Shown here piece by piece: positions 4,826 through 55,816 of a DNA stretch of 64,000 bases. The stretch is from contig NZ_CAJYMO010000024.1 in NCBI RefSeq assembly GCF_913776365.1, forward strand, positions 1 to 64,000. Reading direction: 5' to 3'. Under the pieces are notes generated by a model. That model had not been told where the DNA came from. It saw only the letters and a list, made by a program, of their open reading frames with translations, and made no database searches. The number at the start of each line of letters is the position of its first letter. The stretch's first letter is position 1. The translations under genes and the position numbers were made by a program. The DNA is from an uncultured Chryseobacterium sp. GTDB lineage: Bacteria; Bacteroidota; Bacteroidia; Flavobacteriales; Weeksellaceae.

Positions 4826-7096
4826 ATGACTTTTGATATTGACATGATCAAAAAAGTGTATGAGCGCTACCCTGAAAGAATTGCTGCGGCAAGACAGATT
4901 ACAGGAAAGCCACTGACACTTTCAGAGAAAATCCTTTACACGCACTTGTGGGAAGGAAATGCAACCCAGGAATATGAAAGAGGAAATTCTTATGTAGATT
5001 TCGCGCCGGACAGAGTTGCGATGCAGGATGCTACCGCACAAATGGCCCTGCTGCAGTTTATGCAGGCCGGAAAGCCAAAGGTAGCGGTTCCTTCCACTGT
5101 ACATGCCGATCACCTGATCCAGGCGAAAGTGGGTGCAGACAAGGATTTGCAGGAAGGAATCAATAAAAACTCGGAGGTTTTCAACTTTTTAAGTTCCGTC
5201 TGCGATAAGTACGGAATCGGATTCTGGAAGCCAGGCGCAGGGATTATCCACCAGGTAGTGCTTGAAAACTATGCTTTTCCGGGAGGAATGATGATCGGTA
5301 CCGATTCCCATACGGTAAATGCCGGAGGGCTGGGCATGGTAGCCATTGGTGTAGGAGGTGCTGATGCAGTAGATGTAATGGCAGGAATGGCCTGGGAACT
5401 TAAAATGCCAAGACTGATCGGGGTAAAATTAACCGGTAAGATGTCCGGATGGACTTCTGCCAAAGATGTTATCCTTAAAGTAGCCGGAATCCTGACCGTG
5501 AAAGGAGGAACCGGATGTATCGTGGAATATTTCGGGGAAGGAGCAGAATCCCTTTCTGCTACCGGTAAAGGAACCATTTGTAATATGGGAGCTGAAGTAG
5601 GGGCTACCACTTCTACTTTCGGGTATGACGATTCCATGAGGAGATACCTTTCTGCTACCGGACGACAGGACATCGTGGATGCAGCAGACCAGATTGCCGA
5701 ACATCTGACAGGAGATCCTGAAGTATATGCCAATCCGGAACAGTATTTTGATCAGTTGATCGAAATCAATCTTTCAGAACTTACCCCGCATTTGAACGGG
5801 CCTTTCACTCCGGACTTAGCAACACCGGTTTCTGAATTCAGAGCCAAGGCAGAAGCTAACGGATGGCCTATTGAAGTAGAATGGGCACTGATCGGTTCAT
5901 GTACCAACTCTTCATATGAAGATTTGTCGAGAGCGGCCTCCATTGTAGAGAATGCAGTAGCTAAGGGGGTTAAGCCTAAAGCGATTTTAGGAATTAACCC
6001 GGGCTCGGAACAGGTAAAATATACGGCTGAAAGAGACGGCTTCCTGGATTCGTTCAGGAAATTCGAAAATGCAAGGATTTTTACCAATGCATGCGGACCT
6101 TGTATCGGACAATGGGACAGGGAAGGTGCTGAAAAAGGTGAAAAGAATTCCATTATCCACTCTTTTAACAGAAACTTTGCAAAAAGAGCGGATGGTAACC
6201 CCAATACCCATGCTTTTGTGGCTTCACCTGAGATGGTGGCTGCCGTAGCTATTTCGGGAAGACTGGATTTCAACCCGATTACCGATACCCTGACCACTGA
6301 AAGCGGGGAACAGGTAAAACTGGATGAGCCGAAAGGTTCTGAGCTTCCTTCAAAAGGTTTTGCCGTAGAAGATAACGGATATCAGGCCCCTTCTGAAGAT
6401 GGTTCGGGCGTTGTTGTAGACGTAAGTCCGACTTCAGACAGGCTTCAGATCCTTGAAGAATTCCCGGCATGGGACGGTAAGAACATTACCGGTGCCAAAG
6501 TACTGATCAAAGCTTTCGGGAAATGTACTACTGACCATATTTCTATGGCCGGTCCATGGCTGAAGTACAGAGGCCACCTGGATAATATATCCAATAATAT
6601 GCTGATCGGTGCCGTAAATGCGTATAACATGGAGACCAACCACGTTAAAAACCAGCTAACCGGTGAATACGGGGAAGTACCGGCTGTACAACGGGCTTAT
6701 AAAGCTGCCAATATCCCGTCGATTGTGGTAGGAGACCAGAATTACGGTGAAGGATCTTCCAGAGAGCATGCAGCGATGGAACCGAGGCACCTTGGTGTAA
6801 AAGCAGTCCTGGTGAAATCTTTTGCGAGAATCCATGAGACCAATCTGAAAAAACAGGGAATGCTTGGGCTGACATTTGCCGATGAAGCAGACTACGACAA
6901 AGTACAGGAAGATGACACTGTGAATTTCCTTGATCTCGAACAGTTTGCTCCAGGAAAACAGCTGACCCTAGAATTCGTTCATAAAGACGGATCCAAAGAT
7001 ACGGTCATGGCGAACCATACTTACAATGCCCAGCAGATTGACTGGTTCAAAGCAGGTTCTGCCTTAAACCTGATCAAGCAGCAGGAGAAAAATTAA
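4826..7096 (+). CDS. Aconitate hydratase, mitochondrial-type
   Basis: 756 aa, close to mitochondrial aconitase length and clearly different from AcnB. It performs the same citrate/isocitrate step in the cytoplasm. The Fe-S ligands appear as Cys359 or so ([11 protein letters not shown]) and Cys423/Cys426 or so ([10 protein letters not shown]). The substrate loop [12 protein letters not shown] and the C-terminal swivel motif [19 protein letters not shown] are intact, so it should be active. It has its own likely promoter and a bidirectional terminator at 7120-7149. Having two different aconitases side by side suggests different conditions of use, such as oxidative or iron stress versus growth; that is inference. 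Confidence 0.93.
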
Positions 7097-22278: not shown

Positions 22279-22317
22279 CCCATGACAGTACAAGAGAATG
22301 TACGGCAAAGTCATTGC

Positions 22318-22397
22318 ACTTTTCCCTACGCCGGTATGATCCGGATCAGGTTCAAAGGGTAAATCTCAGCCTGTTTTTCAACAGACACCCCTAAAGT
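22318..22397 (-). ncRNA. TPP riboswitch (THI element)
   Basis: The minus strand carries the conserved CTGAGA (in CAGGCTGAGATTTACCC), then ACCTGATCCGGATCATACC and GGCGTAGGGA. P1 closes by ACTTT at 22397-22393 with AAAGT at 22322-22318. It precedes thiS and the whole thiamine operon. TPP binding would be expected to repress. Confidence 0.97.
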
Positions 22398-22483
22398 CTG
22401 AGGCGAAGGTAGCTATTTTTCCGGAACAGGCAAAATTTTTTGTGGGTAAGGAAAAAGAAAACAGGGCGGGGGATTTCCGTAAG

Positions 22484-50480: not shown

Positions 50481-50691
50481 AGTAAAATCTATTCTATACT
50501 TGCTATATTTATATTTTTTGTGTTATCAGGTTATTAAAAAGCAATTCAGTAGAGCTTCACATCAAATTTTCTATAGATAATAAAAATGTTATAATGCAAT
50601 ATATTGTGTTATATACAATTATCATTAAAATGATGTTAATAAAAGTTTATTAATAATACATTTTTTTGTAAATTGGTTTAAAATTATTAAC

Positions 50692-51525
50692 ATGAAAAAA
50701 TACTTTAGCCTTGGTTCTCTTTTATTAATATCTATTGTTTTTGCTCAGAATCAAAGATTCAGCTATGAATACCGTTCAGTGCCGGATTTTTCCAAACCAA
50801 ATGATACTGTTGTACAGACTATGCGTCTGGAAACATCTCCAAAAGGTTCTTCCTTTTACAGTTATGAAACAGCTTATAATGATTCAATCAGAAGAATTCA
50901 GTATGAAAAACAACTGGAATTTTCCCAAAATTTGAACATATCCCAAGCAGACGCAGCTTCAAGAAAAAGATACTTTAAAGATAAAATATCGAAGACTTAT
51001 CCGAAATTTGAGATTTTTTCGCATACCTCCATAGGTCGTGATAAGCTCAAAGTAGAAGAAAGCAGACCGATAAAATGGCAAATTCTTAATGAAAAAGAAA
51101 ATATAGGGTTATGGTCAACACAAAAAGCAAAAACGGAATTTGCTGGAAGAAAATGGACAGCGTGGTTTACAACAGAAATTCCTTTGCAGGAAGGGCCTTA
51201 TAAATTTTATGGTTTGCCTGGACTTATTGTTAAAATGGAAGATGAGACGAAAAGCCACGTTTTCCTTTTAAAAGAAGTGAAGAATATGCCGGAAAATTTT
51301 GAAATAAAAAATATTGCAGATAATAAAGAAGTAAAAGCTTCAGTTAATCAATATGCTAAGCTTATAAAACAGCACAATGATGACCCTATGCGTACACTGC
51401 GTACAGCAGAAGCAAACGGACAAATAAAGATTACACCTGAAAACAGGGCAAGTTATGAAAAATCGCAAAAAACCAGACTGGAAAATCGTAAAAATGAAAA
51501 TCCTATTGAAATTCAAGTAAATTGA
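50692..51525 (+). CDS. GLPGLI family protein
   Basis: 277 aa with a signal peptide (MKKYFSLGSLLLISIVFAQ). The eponymous motif PYKFYGLPGLIVKMEDETKSH is present near residue 170. The family is secreted, common in Bacteroidota, and of unknown function. AT-rich codons relative to the preceding lon gene mark the start of the AT-rich island. No operon partner is seen. Confidence 0.85.
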   Translation: MKKYFSLGSLLLISIVFAQNQRFSYEYRSVPDFSKPNDTVVQTMRLETSPKGSSFYSYETAYNDSIRRIQYEKQLEFSQNLNISQADAASRKRYFKDKISKTYPKFEIFSHTSIGRDKLKVEESRPIKWQILNEKENIGLWSTQKAKTEFAGRKWTAWFTTEIPLQEGPYKFYGLPGLIVKMEDETKSHVFLLKEVKNMPENFEIKNIADNKEVKASVNQYAKLIKQHNDDPMRTLRTAEANGQIKITPENRASYEKSQKTRLENRKNENPIEIQVN

Positions 51526-52090
51526 TTCATAAGGTTAAATATAAATTTAAGTTATTTTAATTTTTCTACTGAAACAGGCTGTAATTCAAGGTATTTTGAT
51601 TGTTAAAAGCTACCTTAATTTCCAGCCTATTTCTATGTAAAGATATAATAAGTATATTAAAAAAATGTAATATCTTAGATTCCGAATTCTGTCCTTTTCT
51701 CGCTAATCCAAATTAATTGTTAATTGTAGACATGCCTAATATTTAAAATTAAAAAAAATTAGCTATTATAACAGGAAAAAAGAAGAACTTAATGTTTTAT
51801 TTTATAGATAGAATGGTATTCCTCCAGCCATGGATAAATTTTAAACAGGCAGTCGTATAATATAATGTATATGATTTCGAGTCCATTCTAACAAAACATT
51901 TCCGGGTTTAAAAAGTGATAAATCCATATTTGAATAAGTAAAAAAACGAAGTGTTAAATCACGAGTCCTTTCTGATGAACTTCACAAGAAATAGTATTTT
52001 TTCAGAAAGGCCATCTGCGTATTTTGATGATTTCATATCTTTCTTACTTATACAAGAACCTAAACAACAGTAAAATGTAGATGCACTCAA
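51526..52090. other. AT-rich intergenic region
   Basis: 565 bp without a credible ORF. One inverted repeat, CCTTTCTGA (51967-51975) with TCAGAAAGG (52002-52010), could terminate the converging transcripts; its loop is long (26 nt). The rest is AT-rich sequence, with nothing else I can assign. Confidence 0.5.
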
Positions 52091-53593
52091 CTAGTCACTT
52101 TTTTTTGCAATTTTTATAAGCTGCTGAATCTGATCATCGCTATTGCATAGTATTTGAGATATTGTTCTTGGCAGTTGAATATCGGGATCGGTTCCTATTC
52201 CGTCAAATAAATTTCCATTTTTTTGAAATGAAATCATTTGTGAAATGGTAAATTGTATTTGAGATTGATTTAAGTTATAGGTCATAGGCATGCCACTGGA
52301 TCCATCAGTAGGGCTTCCTGCTATTTTGATATTCCCAATTCCCTTGAAAACAGAAACAAATATGCTGGCAGAGCTAAAAGTCATCTCATTAGCTAATATA
52401 TAAACAGGTTTTTCAAAATAAAAATTATCTGTTTGCCTGGCATTTTTATTATTTAATACCATATAGAAATATTCGCTATATAATTTATTATCAATCTGCA
52501 CATCAGGATGAAATGTTTTTAGAAAATTATCAATTGCCTCTTTTGATTTTGCATTCTTAAATCTGCTATATGGATAAAGATACTTCGCCTCTAAATCTTT
52601 AATAATTTCCGCATTTAGGGATCCTTTATTTTTAGCTATATTAACAACTTTATATTCATCTGGTTTTAAAAAATAACTTGAAAAAAAATCTATTAAATCT
52701 CTGCTTCCTCCAGAATTGTTTCGAACATCTATAATCAGGGCATCAGAGTTTTTCAATAATTTTAACTTTTCCTTTAATAATTGAAAATATTTCGGATTTT
52801 CTGAATAACTATACATTTTAGGAATTTTAAAGTATAGTATATTATTATCATCCAACTTAATTATTGGTTCCTCTTTATTATCGTTTATATAGTTATCAAT
52901 GTCACGCCATTTATTTTTTGATGCAACAACTTTAATAAAAATAACAGAGTCTTTTTTGAGGTCCTTACTTAAAAAAGTTAACTTCAATTTATCTCCAATC
53001 CGTAATCCTTTTTTTATTTTATATAGTTCGTTTAATTTATCCACTCCATGCGCTAAGGAAGAATATTCAGGTGCCTTTTTGTTTTCCGGATCATATTTAT
53101 GAATAAAGTCTATTAAACTATAATTGTCAATACGACTCAGGTATGGAAAATCTTTCATGAATAAAGAGAATTTTCCTTTTCCTGCTTTGACAACTGCAAC
53201 CGCCTGGTTATTTTTCCAAGGTGCCAAACCAAATGGTAAATAATATTTACTATTTTCCTTACAATTCCCTATATAATTTAAATGGAAATGTCTATCTCCT
53301 AAATTTGATAATATTTTACGTAAATTGTCTGAATATTCCTCTTTTTTTATCTTACCATTCTTATCAGATAAAGCTTTGGAAGACAATATATCTAATGAAT
53401 CCAGAACACCTGAGTTTTTTATGTCTATATATGGAGATGTTTCCAAAAGAAGCTTTTTAATATGCTCAATTTCAGATATAATTTCAGTATTGTTTACAAG
53501 GCAATCGTTATTTTTATCCGAGCAACTAAAAATAGCAATTATAAATATGGCTAGATATATTATATGATGACTTTTATTAATTTTTAATTTCAT
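52091..53593 (-). CDS. S41 family peptidase lipoprotein
   Basis: 500 aa. A lipobox (FSCSDK) follows a signal segment (about 8-23). The middle includes a helical region without an obvious PDZ domain. The catalytic domain has ALIIDVRNNSGGSRDLIDFF and the nucleophile region ILANEMTFSSASIFVSVFKG, with GSPTDGSSG following. S41 members are C-terminal processing or tricorn-like proteases; the substrate is unknown. It is 9 bp downstream of the polytopic membrane-protein gene, so likely in one operon, and may process a secreted peptide. AT-rich. Confidence 0.8.
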   Translation of the reverse strand: MKLKINKSHHIIYLAIFIIAIFSCSDKNNDCLVNNTEIISEIEHIKKLLLETSPYIDIKNSGVLDSLDILSSKALSDKNGKIKKEEYSDNLRKILSNLGDRHFHLNYIGNCKENSKYYLPFGLAPWKNNQAVAVVKAGKGKFSLFMKDFPYLSRIDNYSLIDFIHKYDPENKKAPEYSSLAHGVDKLNELYKIKKGLRIGDKLKLTFLSKDLKKDSVIFIKVVASKNKWRDIDNYINDNKEEPIIKLDDNNILYFKIPKMYSYSENPKYFQLLKEKLKLLKNSDALIIDVRNNSGGSRDLIDFFSSYFLKPDEYKVVNIAKNKGSLNAEIIKDLEAKYLYPYSRFKNAKSKEAIDNFLKTFHPDVQIDNKLYSEYFYMVLNNKNARQTDNFYFEKPVYILANEMTFSSASIFVSVFKGIGNIKIAGSPTDGSSGMPMTYNLNQSQIQFTISQMISFQKNGNLFDGIGTDPDIQLPRTISQILCNSDDQIQQLIKIAKKSD

Positions 53594-53602
53594 AAATATT
53601 AG

Positions 53603-54478
53603 TTATAAAGAATTTTTAAAATAGAAAATAGATTCTTGCCAAGGAACCATAATAAATTGAAGAAGAATAAAAGCTATTATATAATATATTGAATATTTGA
53701 CATTAGTCTGTCCTATTCCTAACAATAAAAGTATAGAGGAAAAACCTAGAACCGGAAAAATAAAATATGTTCCAATACAAAAGGTAATCAAGGCAATATC
53801 TTTTATGGTATTTTCTTTTTTTATAAAAAGAAAAAGTGCGGCTACAATTGCTTCGAATATCAATCCAAATATTTGGAAACAATAAAGAATCCTACTGAGA
53901 TATAAAGAGTTGGTTAAGTTTATATAGCTGTTATCTATAGGTAAATAATTTAGTAAGCTGACATCTTTCTGATTTTCAAATAACTCTTCGTAAGGTGTTT
54001 GAGTAATAAAATTCGTAACCAACATAAATCTTCCGTCAATAAGGAAGCGTCCGTGTAGAAACCCTGGAGTATGAAATCCATTCAGAAATTTTTGCAATAC
54101 TGCGAAAAACATGACGAGACCTATCATCAGCCTTGCATTATTTTTAATATACCCAATATTTTTCCCAGTCCATAAATAAACTGTTATCAGCAATATCCAA
54201 TAAGTGAAGAGAATTTTATGATTATCTAAGCTGTAAAATTGTAAACTATTGAAAAAAATCAGAAAAAATGATATTAATAACCAGAGTAATTTATTGGCTA
54301 TATAATTATTAAAAGCAAGCATTATAACGCATATTATGCGCATAAAAACATCTAATCCCCATCCTGTACTCCCATCAAGTACCAATAGTATCAGCGAAAA
54401 CTTTAATATGAGATTCTCTTGAAAAGTTTGAGGTACAACATTATAATGTTTTATAAATGCAATAATTTTATTTGTCAA
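53603..54478 (-). CDS. Polytopic membrane protein, HTTM/SdpB-like
   Basis: 291 aa with about 8 TM helices. Segments MIGLVMFFAVLQKFLNGFHTPGFL and DNHKILFTYWILLITVYLW recall the loop-and-helix pattern of HTTM/SdpB-type and DoxX-like membrane proteins, but no diagnostic catalytic residues can be assigned by eye. Gaps of 10 and 9 bp to its neighbours show a compact operon. A role in peptide export or modification is inference from context. Confidence 0.55.
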   Translation of the reverse strand: MTNKIIAFIKHYNVVPQTFQENLILKFSLILLVLDGSTGWGLDVFMRIICVIMLAFNNYIANKLLWLLISFFLIFFNSLQFYSLDNHKILFTYWILLITVYLWTGKNIGYIKNNARLMIGLVMFFAVLQKFLNGFHTPGFLHGRFLIDGRFMLVTNFITQTPYEELFENQKDVSLLNYLPIDNSYINLTNSLYLSRILYCFQIFGLIFEAIVAALFLFIKKENTIKDIALITFCIGTYFIFPVLGFSSILLLLGIGQTNVKYSIYYIIAFILLQFIMVPWQESIFYFKNSL

Positions 54479-54488
54479 TGTGCATGTT

Positions 54489-55052
54489 TTAAAATTTAAC
54501 GGACTCTTCTTTACCTATATAATGTTTCTGAACTTTTACACCTTGTTCATAAAAATCTGTTTCATACAACATAACTTTCACCTTTTCTATATTGATTGCC
54601 CCTTCTAAATTAGCATTCTTCAAACCTTGGTAATACTTAGGAGTATATATTTTACTATAAAATTTTTTATTGTTTTTGATATAATTTGTACTTTTTTCAT
54701 CTAGATGCTGAGGAAGCGTAAGGGAAGAAGGTTTCAAATAAGAATTTACAATTAAAGTTGCTAATTTATTCAGTCTATTTTTATCCGGAAACTGTTTGGT
54801 TTGATTTAAGAAATTTCTGGGAATAGGAATATCATATTTACTACCTTCCACTTTTATCAATACTGAATCTCCGTCTTTTGTATATCCAATAGCTGTGATA
54901 TTTGAAGTTTTATTAGTAGAAAACATACCAAATCCACCACCTTTCCAAGGGGTTAATCGATCAAATTGGGAATCATAAATTTGAACTAATGCAACAAATA
55001 CTAAAACAAAACATATGAAAAAATTATCTACTATTTTCACAAGAGTATTCAT
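54489..55052 (-). CDS. One-TM protein, SdpA-like in layout
   Basis: The ATG at 55052 (MNTLVKIVDNFFI) is preferred over the track start at 55175, which would overlap a hairpin; 187 aa. One N-terminal TM helix (about 8-27), then an extracytoplasmic domain starting with QFDRLTPWKGGGFGMFST. Size and topology resemble SdpA (one TM plus small soluble domain), but no homology can be shown here. It lies 10 bp upstream of the polytopic gene. Confidence 0.6.
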   Translation of the reverse strand: MNTLVKIVDNFFICFVLVFVALVQIYDSQFDRLTPWKGGGFGMFSTNKTSNITAIGYTKDGDSVLIKVEGSKYDIPIPRNFLNQTKQFPDKNRLNKLATLIVNSYLKPSSLTLPQHLDEKSTNYIKNNKKFYSKIYTPKYYQGLKNANLEGAINIEKVKVMLYETDFYEQGVKVQKHYIGKEESVKF

Positions 55053-55162
55053 GGTTTGAAAGTTTAAAAGAGAACATCTTGAAAGCAAGACAATACTCTT
55101 TGGAATAAAATATTTATCTATACTTGTCGTATAGGGAGGGATATGAACAAAATTTATAAAAT

Positions 55163-55193
55163 AGAGGCTGCCCAAATTTTTTCGACAGCCTCT
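55163..55193 (-). terminator. Hairpin between peptide gene and operon
   Basis: AGAGGCTG and CAGCCTCT are perfect 8-bp arms 10 bp after the peptide stop; on the minus strand TATTTTATAAATTTT follows. It may partly terminate or stabilise the peptide mRNA, making the peptide more abundant than downstream proteins. Confidence 0.6.
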
Positions 55194-55202
55194 TGATTTT
55201 AA

Positions 55203-55409
55203 TTAGGGTGTGTTAACTTCCGCTTGTGCTTCCATTAATTCATATCGTTCTTCACGCAATTCTGCAGGAGGTCGTATTTCATCCGATGCATCAAAATTTG
55301 GTGCAGCAGTTAAAACATCCGATGTTTTAGAATCGTCCATTTTTGAAAAAGAAAAGGATCCTATAACGATTGCGCCTAGTAATCCATAAAACATTAATTT
55401 TGTTTTCAT
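55203..55409 (-). CDS. Small secreted peptide precursor
   Basis: 68 aa. A signal peptide of about 22 residues (MKTKLMFYGLLGAIVIGSFS) precedes an acidic, Cys-free segment of about 45 aa (KMDDSKTSDVLTAAPNFDAS, then Arg/Glu-rich, ending AEVNTP). Net charge is clearly negative, unlike common cationic antimicrobial peptides. It is the first gene of the minus-strand cassette. It could be a pheromone, bacteriocin precursor or modified peptide. Function unknown. Confidence 0.6.
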   Translation of the reverse strand: MKTKLMFYGLLGAIVIGSFSFSKMDDSKTSDVLTAAPNFDASDEIRPPAELREERYELMEAQAEVNTP

Positions 55410-55816
55410 AATGATTGATTTAGTTAATTTATTGCCTACTTTCAGTTTTTTTCAGTCTCTGTTTCGGCTTTTCAGACTTTAAATATCTTTTACAAATATA
55501 TTTAAAATTTTAATAATTCTATTAAAATTATTGAATAATTATAAAATATATGTAATTCAGATTAAATAAATCACCATTTTTATAATTCACAACACAACGA
55601 AAAATAACAATCAATAAACTAAATATCAACACGTTATATCATTTGCTTTTTATGACTTATTTTTTGAAATACACTAAATATTTGATTACCTAATATTTGC
55701 ATTATCGAAAATATTAGCTATAATTAGATTATTTGCATTGAGACCGCTGAATGTCTCTAGGCGCTGTGGCATATATTGACCTGTATTAAAGCTATAAGCA
55801 AAACTTACTATGATTT
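55410..55816. promoter_or_regulatory. AT-rich region upstream of the peptide gene
   Basis: 407 bp without a gene. An exact -7 element TATATTTG lies on the minus strand (plus 55493-55500), 84 bp before the peptide ATG; no -33 TTG is evident. A small GAGAC/GTCTC hairpin at 55740-55757 lies near the acyl-CoA dehydrogenase stop. The rest is AT-rich. Confidence 0.4.

Follow-up and report, generated by a model that had tools for sequence, protein, structure and literature searches.

A candidate peptide-maturation cassette with Glu-rich precursors and a VKGC-like HTTM protein in Chryseobacterium

Described systems and the Chryseobacterium locus

The VKGC carboxylases, which include GGCX and belong to the HTTM proteins (PF05090), are single chains with a lumenal propeptide-binding domain. 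Their vitamin K-dependent substrates are secreted proteins in which a conserved segment follows the signal peptide and a Glu-rich region comes next. In GGCX, N159 and H160 form the Glu pocket, K218 is the base, F286 and F299 form the vitamin K ring pocket, and M401/M402 of the linker separate the Glu and vitamin K pockets (PMC12589487). The SdpABC and YitPOM operons of Bacillus subtilis combine a secreted precursor with a one-transmembrane-helix (one-TM) protein and a polytopic HTTM-type protein; in the precursors, SdpC and YitM, a hydrophobic toxin domain lies at the C-terminus (PMC6818787). Linaridin clusters also contain HTTM proteins, whose roles in maturation are unproven (PMC9927463). 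Here we describe a cassette resembling parts of these systems, found in a stretch of 64,000 nucleotides from an uncultured Chryseobacterium sp. (contig NZ_CAJYMO010000024.1, positions 1 to 64,000; the window). It encodes a Glu-rich secreted peptide, a one-TM protein, an eight-TM protein that we assign to the HTTM superfamily, and an S41 peptidase:

50481..55816, no strand: AT-rich inserted segment between an AI-2E-type permease gene and an acyl-CoA dehydrogenase gene
55203-55409, minus strand: secreted Glu-rich precursor peptide of 68 amino acids (aa), with homologues at the equivalent place in 7 loci, up to four in tandem
54489-55052, minus strand: one-TM protein, 187 aa, with an invariant LTPWKGGGFGMF loop (PWKGGGFGMF) and an extracytoplasmic alpha/beta domain; 32 homologues
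53603-54478, minus strand: eight-TM HTTM-superfamily protein, 291 aa, with invariant N86-H87, K130, F233 and F246
52091-53593, minus strand: S41 peptidase, 500 aa, with a lipoprotein signal (IFSC); PF03572, E = 1.3e-21; CPAF-like

An initial annotation of this DNA, made from the letters alone, had placed all four minus-strand genes correctly (signal-peptide precursor, one-TM protein, eight-TM protein and S41 lipoprotein) and given the right spacings of 10 and 9 bp between the three large genes. Its description of AT-rich DNA unlike the flanks also held, with 27-31% GC along the segment of about 5.3 kb versus mostly 42-49% in the flanks. The inventory it gave was incomplete, overlooking a GLPGLI gene on the opposite strand and a structured leader upstream of the peptide. 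The one-TM gene starts at an ATG, the equivalent of which is the start of most homologues, and the mechanical 228-aa open reading frame (ORF) from a TTG is over-long. The eight-TM gene starts with TTG, aligned with the ATG of its homologues.

Relatives of the one-TM family were sought in 85,462 species genomes, and 32 were found. Eight of these are close, all in Bacteroidota, with 49-59% identity to the window copy in the one-TM protein, 56-69% in the eight-TM protein and 35-49% in the S41 protein. These eight loci share the order one-TM, eight-TM, S41; the precursor genes lie upstream in seven of the loci and downstream in the other. A conserved neighbourhood, named beforehand as a test of the cassette, was therefore found. 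The association goes far beyond what chance would give: eight other Bacteroidota have the same order, and in nine congeners the permease and dehydrogenase genes are directly adjacent, with none of the segment DNA between them. The linkage of an encoded precursor, a candidate modifying enzyme and a protease, seen in the window and its relatives, would fit a RiPP (ribosomally synthesized and post-translationally modified peptide) system. Linaridin clusters, compared through the literature only, likewise hold an HTTM protein within a peptide-maturation cluster, but have other precursors, no S41 protease and no PWKGGGFGMF protein.

The operon is continued by an outer-membrane barrel protein gene (PF14905; TonB-receptor-like) in six of the eight close loci, and a DCC1-like thiol oxidoreductase gene (PF04134) is present in three. 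Genes for a tetratricopeptide-repeat (TPR) histidine kinase and a response regulator adjoin three (L003, L004 and L007), which suggests that production is regulated. The number of precursor genes per locus ranges from one to four; L003 has a tandem set of four, L004 one of two, and L008 and L010 one of three each.

With a secreted precursor, a one-TM protein and a polytopic HTTM-type protein in one operon, the window locus and its eight relatives share the architecture of SdpABC/YitPOM, and they might represent a divergent bacteriocin or signalling system of the Sdp type, in which the membrane pair processes or exports an acidic peptide without carboxylation and the S41 protease cuts it. Tandem, variable precursor paralogues are what a toxin or signal would be expected to show, and the two-component systems beside three of the related loci also fit. 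However, no SdpI-type immunity gene was seen among the cassette genes (no genome-wide search was made), and the added S41 protease has no counterpart in the Sdp operon. The precursors and active-site residues described below also differ from those of Sdp systems, and we consider this explanation rather unlikely.

The S41 assignment of the initial annotation was borne out by the PF03572 domain. The nearest named model is CPAF, and all nine S41 homologues compared keep S407 and H102. Unlike CPAF-like and tail-specific proteases, the cassette protein is membrane-anchored, with a lipobox in most homologues and an N-terminal TM in others, has its own N-terminal region, and is always within the operon in the relatives found.

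Precursor tails and active-site residues

The precursors consist of a signal peptide, a short conserved segment and a Glu-rich tail, the same layout as in vitamin K-dependent proteins. Over the last 30 residues the window precursor is 23% Glu, and all 17 precursors are Glu-rich at this end (20-47% in the last 30 residues, mean fraction 0.29). The background fraction in other proteins of the same loci is 0.063, and 2.4% of background windows reach 0.20. In the main precursor group the signal peptide and the segment after it (xKxADVVTVxS) are conserved, and the tail is variable except for Glu. No similarity to the others could be detected in the L008 precursors, which are still Glu-rich and even more acidic; apart from acidity, the L010 and L008 precursors differ widely. 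Because all 17 tails are Glu-rich, including those of L008 that cannot be aligned, Glu is the common feature of the putative substrates. A C-terminal hydrophobic toxin domain of the SdpC type was absent from all 17 precursors, whose tails are acidic, so that the initial annotation was right to set the peptide apart from Sdp toxins. The lack of this domain, characteristic of SdpC and YitM (PMC6818787), counts against an Sdp-type function; SdpC, for its part, lacks a Glu-rich tail.

The high acidity of every precursor could also be explained by an operon for envelope stress or for metal or calcium homeostasis, with the peptide binding cations and the membrane proteins acting as sensor or transporter. 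A TonB-receptor-like barrel gene follows in the relatives, and the leader element described below precedes exported proteins elsewhere, both in keeping with such a role. HTTM members of known role are, however, enzymes or maturation factors and not sensors, and the number and sequence of the precursors vary, unlike those of a housekeeping binder. We regard this explanation as very improbable.

To place the eight-TM protein, its family profile was ranked against 78 polytopic ORFs, with 20 bacterial VKGC and about 20 SdpB-type HTTM proteins as the comparison set and reversed profiles as the null. After the family itself, the next 23 places went without exception to VKGC or to SdpB-type HTTM proteins (scores 19.0-40.6), followed by the best other protein at 18.5; reversed profiles scored 14-18. 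Since the 23 next-ranked ORFs are all HTTM proteins, the ranking supports membership of HTTM, at superfamily level only. No match to the SdpB family TIGR04033 of NCBIfam was found in any of 26 homologues. At the gathering score PF05090 did not match the eight-TM protein or any other protein of its own genome. The earlier comparison with SdpB/HTTM thus stands for the superfamily and fails for the two named families. VKGC homologues of about 450 aa (L035-L054) are otherwise frequent in the class Bacteroidia, with PF05090 in 47 of 119 genomes.

In an unforced alignment, N86-H87 fell on the VKGC Asn-His, K130 on the VKGC Lys, and F233 and F246 on F286 and F299 of GGCX. N86, H87, F233 and F246 are invariant in 31 of 31 homologues from several phyla, and K130 in all 30 that are readable at this position. 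Bacterial VKGC have the Asn-His and the Lys in 20 of 20 cases. The catalytic Lys is common to all HTTM groups compared, whereas the SdpB-type proteins examined have E/D-GGD or QNGG in place of Asn-His. Because Asn-His is invariant both here and in VKGC and is absent from SdpB-type proteins, the active site looks like that of VKGC rather than that of SdpB. Some features differ from VKGC: the spacing between TM4 and TM5 is shorter, with 43 instead of 58 residues from His to Lys, and there is no match at the level of Pfam. This residue pattern, together with the unmatched TIGR04033 and TIGR04034 models, speaks against an Sdp-type system.

The shared Lys leaves room for another quinone-dependent or base-catalysed modification by the HTTM pair, such as epimerisation or oxidation, with the acidic tail serving metal binding or solubility. 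HTTM proteins of unproven role do occur in linaridin clusters (PMC9927463), and, acidity aside, the L010 and L008 precursors are widely different. Against this, Glu is the sole residue enriched across every precursor, and the Asn-His that contacts the Glu side chain in GGCX is kept here while missing in SdpB-type proteins. Such a modification therefore seems to us distinctly unlikely.

In the one-TM protein, an N-terminal TM is followed by the invariant loop LTPWKGGGFGM and by an alpha/beta domain on the extracytoplasmic side. In VKGC, the last TM leads through a W-TEQGYRFSWRVML linker to a beta domain, and both proteins have TM, Gln, Trp, Gly-rich, Phe and Met in a similar order. The one-TM protein may supply the linker part of a split VKGC, a proposal in which the PWKGGGFGMF loop corresponds to the VKGC linker; the lumenal part of VKGC would then be matched by a separate protein without provable sequence homology. 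SdpA also has a TM plus a P-x-GW-x-FFT motif, placed similarly to TPWKGGGFGMFST of the one-TM protein, a likeness that favours the Sdp-type alternative. The identification with SdpA in the initial annotation agreed with this architecture and the similar Gly-aromatic motif, but none of the 32 homologues matched the SdpA family TIGR04034 of NCBIfam, and the profile comparison was not significant. Sequence homology of the one-TM protein to VKGC tails or SdpA is not supported, the scores being within the null, and is kept as a suggestion only, although TM and motif stand in the same register.

Proposed maturation pathway

The reading we favour, tentatively and at less than even confidence, is that the cassette is an Sdp-shaped peptide-maturation system: an enzyme akin to a glutamyl carboxylase split over two genes would act on Glu-rich peptides, which the S41 protease would process. 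The steps would be as follows. The precursor would be exported by means of its Sec signal peptide. The eight-TM and one-TM proteins would together form an envelope enzyme, a two-gene counterpart of the single-chain VKGC. In the HTTM subunit, the catalytic Asn-His would serve as the Glu pocket and the Lys as the base that deprotonates a reduced quinone. The PWKGGGFGMF loop of the one-TM subunit would insert at the membrane surface, at the site of the VKGC Met linker, and this subunit would hold the substrate. The glutamates of the precursor tail would then be modified; the most likely reaction is a menaquinol-driven gamma-carboxylation. Next, the membrane-anchored S41 protease would cut or trim the peptide, and in most relatives the outer-membrane barrel protein may pass it on. 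Carboxylation with menaquinol is favoured because it would best explain the active site as well as the enrichment in Glu. An Sdp-like or new system for maturing or exporting peptides, with a protease of its own, had been proposed in the initial annotation; the Sdp-shaped operon and the S41 protease agree with this, but the active site appears carboxylase-like and not SdpB-like.

A more specific version, a natural bacterial gamma-carboxyglutamate (Gla) peptide pathway with Glu-rich precursors, a split menaquinol-driven VKGC relative, release by S41 and a new class of pseudoknot leader, is possible but in our view more doubtful. To our knowledge, no substrates have been assigned to many bacterial HTTM and VKGC-like proteins, and a protein in which the VKGC catalytic residues are fixed beside small Glu-rich secreted peptides offers a natural candidate enzyme-substrate pair. 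Should carboxylation prove to occur, this would be, as far as we know, the first Gla-peptide pathway in bacteria; it would help to explain how vitamin K-dependent carboxylation arose and give a hint of the role of SdpA and SdpB. In the open literature, incompletely covered, we found nothing on bacterial Gla peptides or on pairs of HTTM and DCC1-like proteins.

Several results weigh against a carboxylase-like maturation system. Neither membrane protein has a Pfam, NCBIfam or PDB sequence match. The one-TM profile scores against VKGC tails and SdpA were within the null. The profile scores of the eight-TM protein are modest, and the match of its invariant residues is a correspondence within a modest-scoring alignment, short of proof of activity. 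AlphaFold models were obtained for the one-TM protein (predicted local distance difference test, pLDDT, 88.6; loop 36-43 disordered in the monomer) and the eight-TM protein (pLDDT 85.5). Foldseek found no significant match for either in the PDB, the GGCX entries included, and there is therefore no structural proof of a link to VKGC. Of the family models named with the initial annotation, the S41 domain alone gave a match, with SdpA, SdpB and the Pfam HTTM family unmatched. Genes for the barrel and DCC1-like proteins, present in relatives, are missing from the window copy (as are those for the TPR kinase and regulator), and beside many of the distant pairs no Glu-rich peptide is evident. The two-gene pair is also carried by some Alphaproteobacteria, in which ubiquinone is the general rule, and these carriers probably use it too. 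Finally, a VKGC of Leptospira reportedly shows no carboxylation of proteins.

Leader RNA, distant relatives and insertion site

Three further features on the minus strand surround the precursor gene:

55434..55482, minus strand: 49-nt structured leader with an H-type pseudoknot, 24 nt 5' of the precursor start codon; 68 bits with model R2
55493..55500, minus strand: TATATTTG, a weak match to TAnnTTTG just 5' of the leader, with no clear -33 box
55157..55201, minus strand: hairpin 3' of the precursor gene, -20.8 kcal/mol, z -4.4; attenuator-like, terminator-like or a stabiliser

TAnnTTTG is the Bacteroidota -7 consensus. The strong hairpin lies in the 150-bp gap between the precursor and one-TM genes, and most other loci have a hairpin of different sequence at the equivalent place.

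The leader consensus is GTCGGAnnnrCCGAAACAGCGAC-n-CTGAAAGTAGGy. Among 40 copies, 6 of 11 pairs had changes on both sides, giving 28 such cells compared with 8.2 ± 2.5 after shuffling. The observed value was reached in 0 of 500 shuffles, and slid controls gave 0-4 cells. The window copy itself carries a double change, with U-A at the fifth stem pair where most copies have G-C. Rfam gave no match to the leader, either at the gathering threshold or at relaxed ones, and for this reason it was ruled out as a known riboswitch. Copies were present in 28 of 323 genomes of the bacterial family, three of them in the source genome; the gene downstream typically encodes a small secreted protein or a lipoprotein and starts about 20 nt further on. 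Since it is spread over these genomes in front of mostly exported proteins, the leader is a general element and not specific to the cassette; a well-covarying RNA of this kind, with no Rfam counterpart, is a separate lead.

The other source-genome copies of the leader are at C64:237-286 and C285:9476-9522 (G000), and there are at least 25 further loci. The two other small secreted peptides of the source genome that follow leader copies, L099:306-554 (82 aa) and L100:4735-4956 (73 aa, Cys-rich), are both precursor-like. Upstream of the L010 precursors (at 6529 and 7517) the leader is shortened or diverged (GGTCG..GCCGAAAAACCTGAA..AGTAGGC) and was missed by the model.

The remaining relatives, from many phyla, keep the membrane-protein pair and lack the S41 gene; where the contig is long enough, the eight-TM gene lies directly 3' of the one-TM gene. 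DCC1-like thiol oxidoreductases adjoin the pair in several loci, and genes for a VKOR-family protein and for a DCC1-like protein lie outside the cassette in the source genome; both observations favour the carboxylase-like reading. The alphaproteobacterial pairs (L029-L034) have Ala-Asn-His, with a DCC1-like gene adjacent in several loci and no Glu-rich peptide beside the pair. Just upstream of the pair in the cyanobacterium Xenococcus is a secreted Glu-rich ORF of 81 aa (L014:7535-7780), possibly an independent substrate.

To judge from composition and distribution, the AT-rich segment is an acquired, horizontally transferred cassette, because it differs from its flanks in GC, is absent from the site in the nine congeners, and contains a one-TM gene with no copy in 174 other genomes of the genus. 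No relatives of the cassette were found among plasmid and viral contigs, and its proteins had no match in a library of defence systems. The segment also contains one gene outside the conserved operon, with its own promoter region and missing from the eight related loci:

50692-51525, plus strand: GLPGLI-family secreted protein gene, TIGR01200, E = 7e-47

Elsewhere in the window, a thiamine pyrophosphate (TPP) riboswitch is found at 22306-22402 on the minus strand (RF00059, 78 bits).

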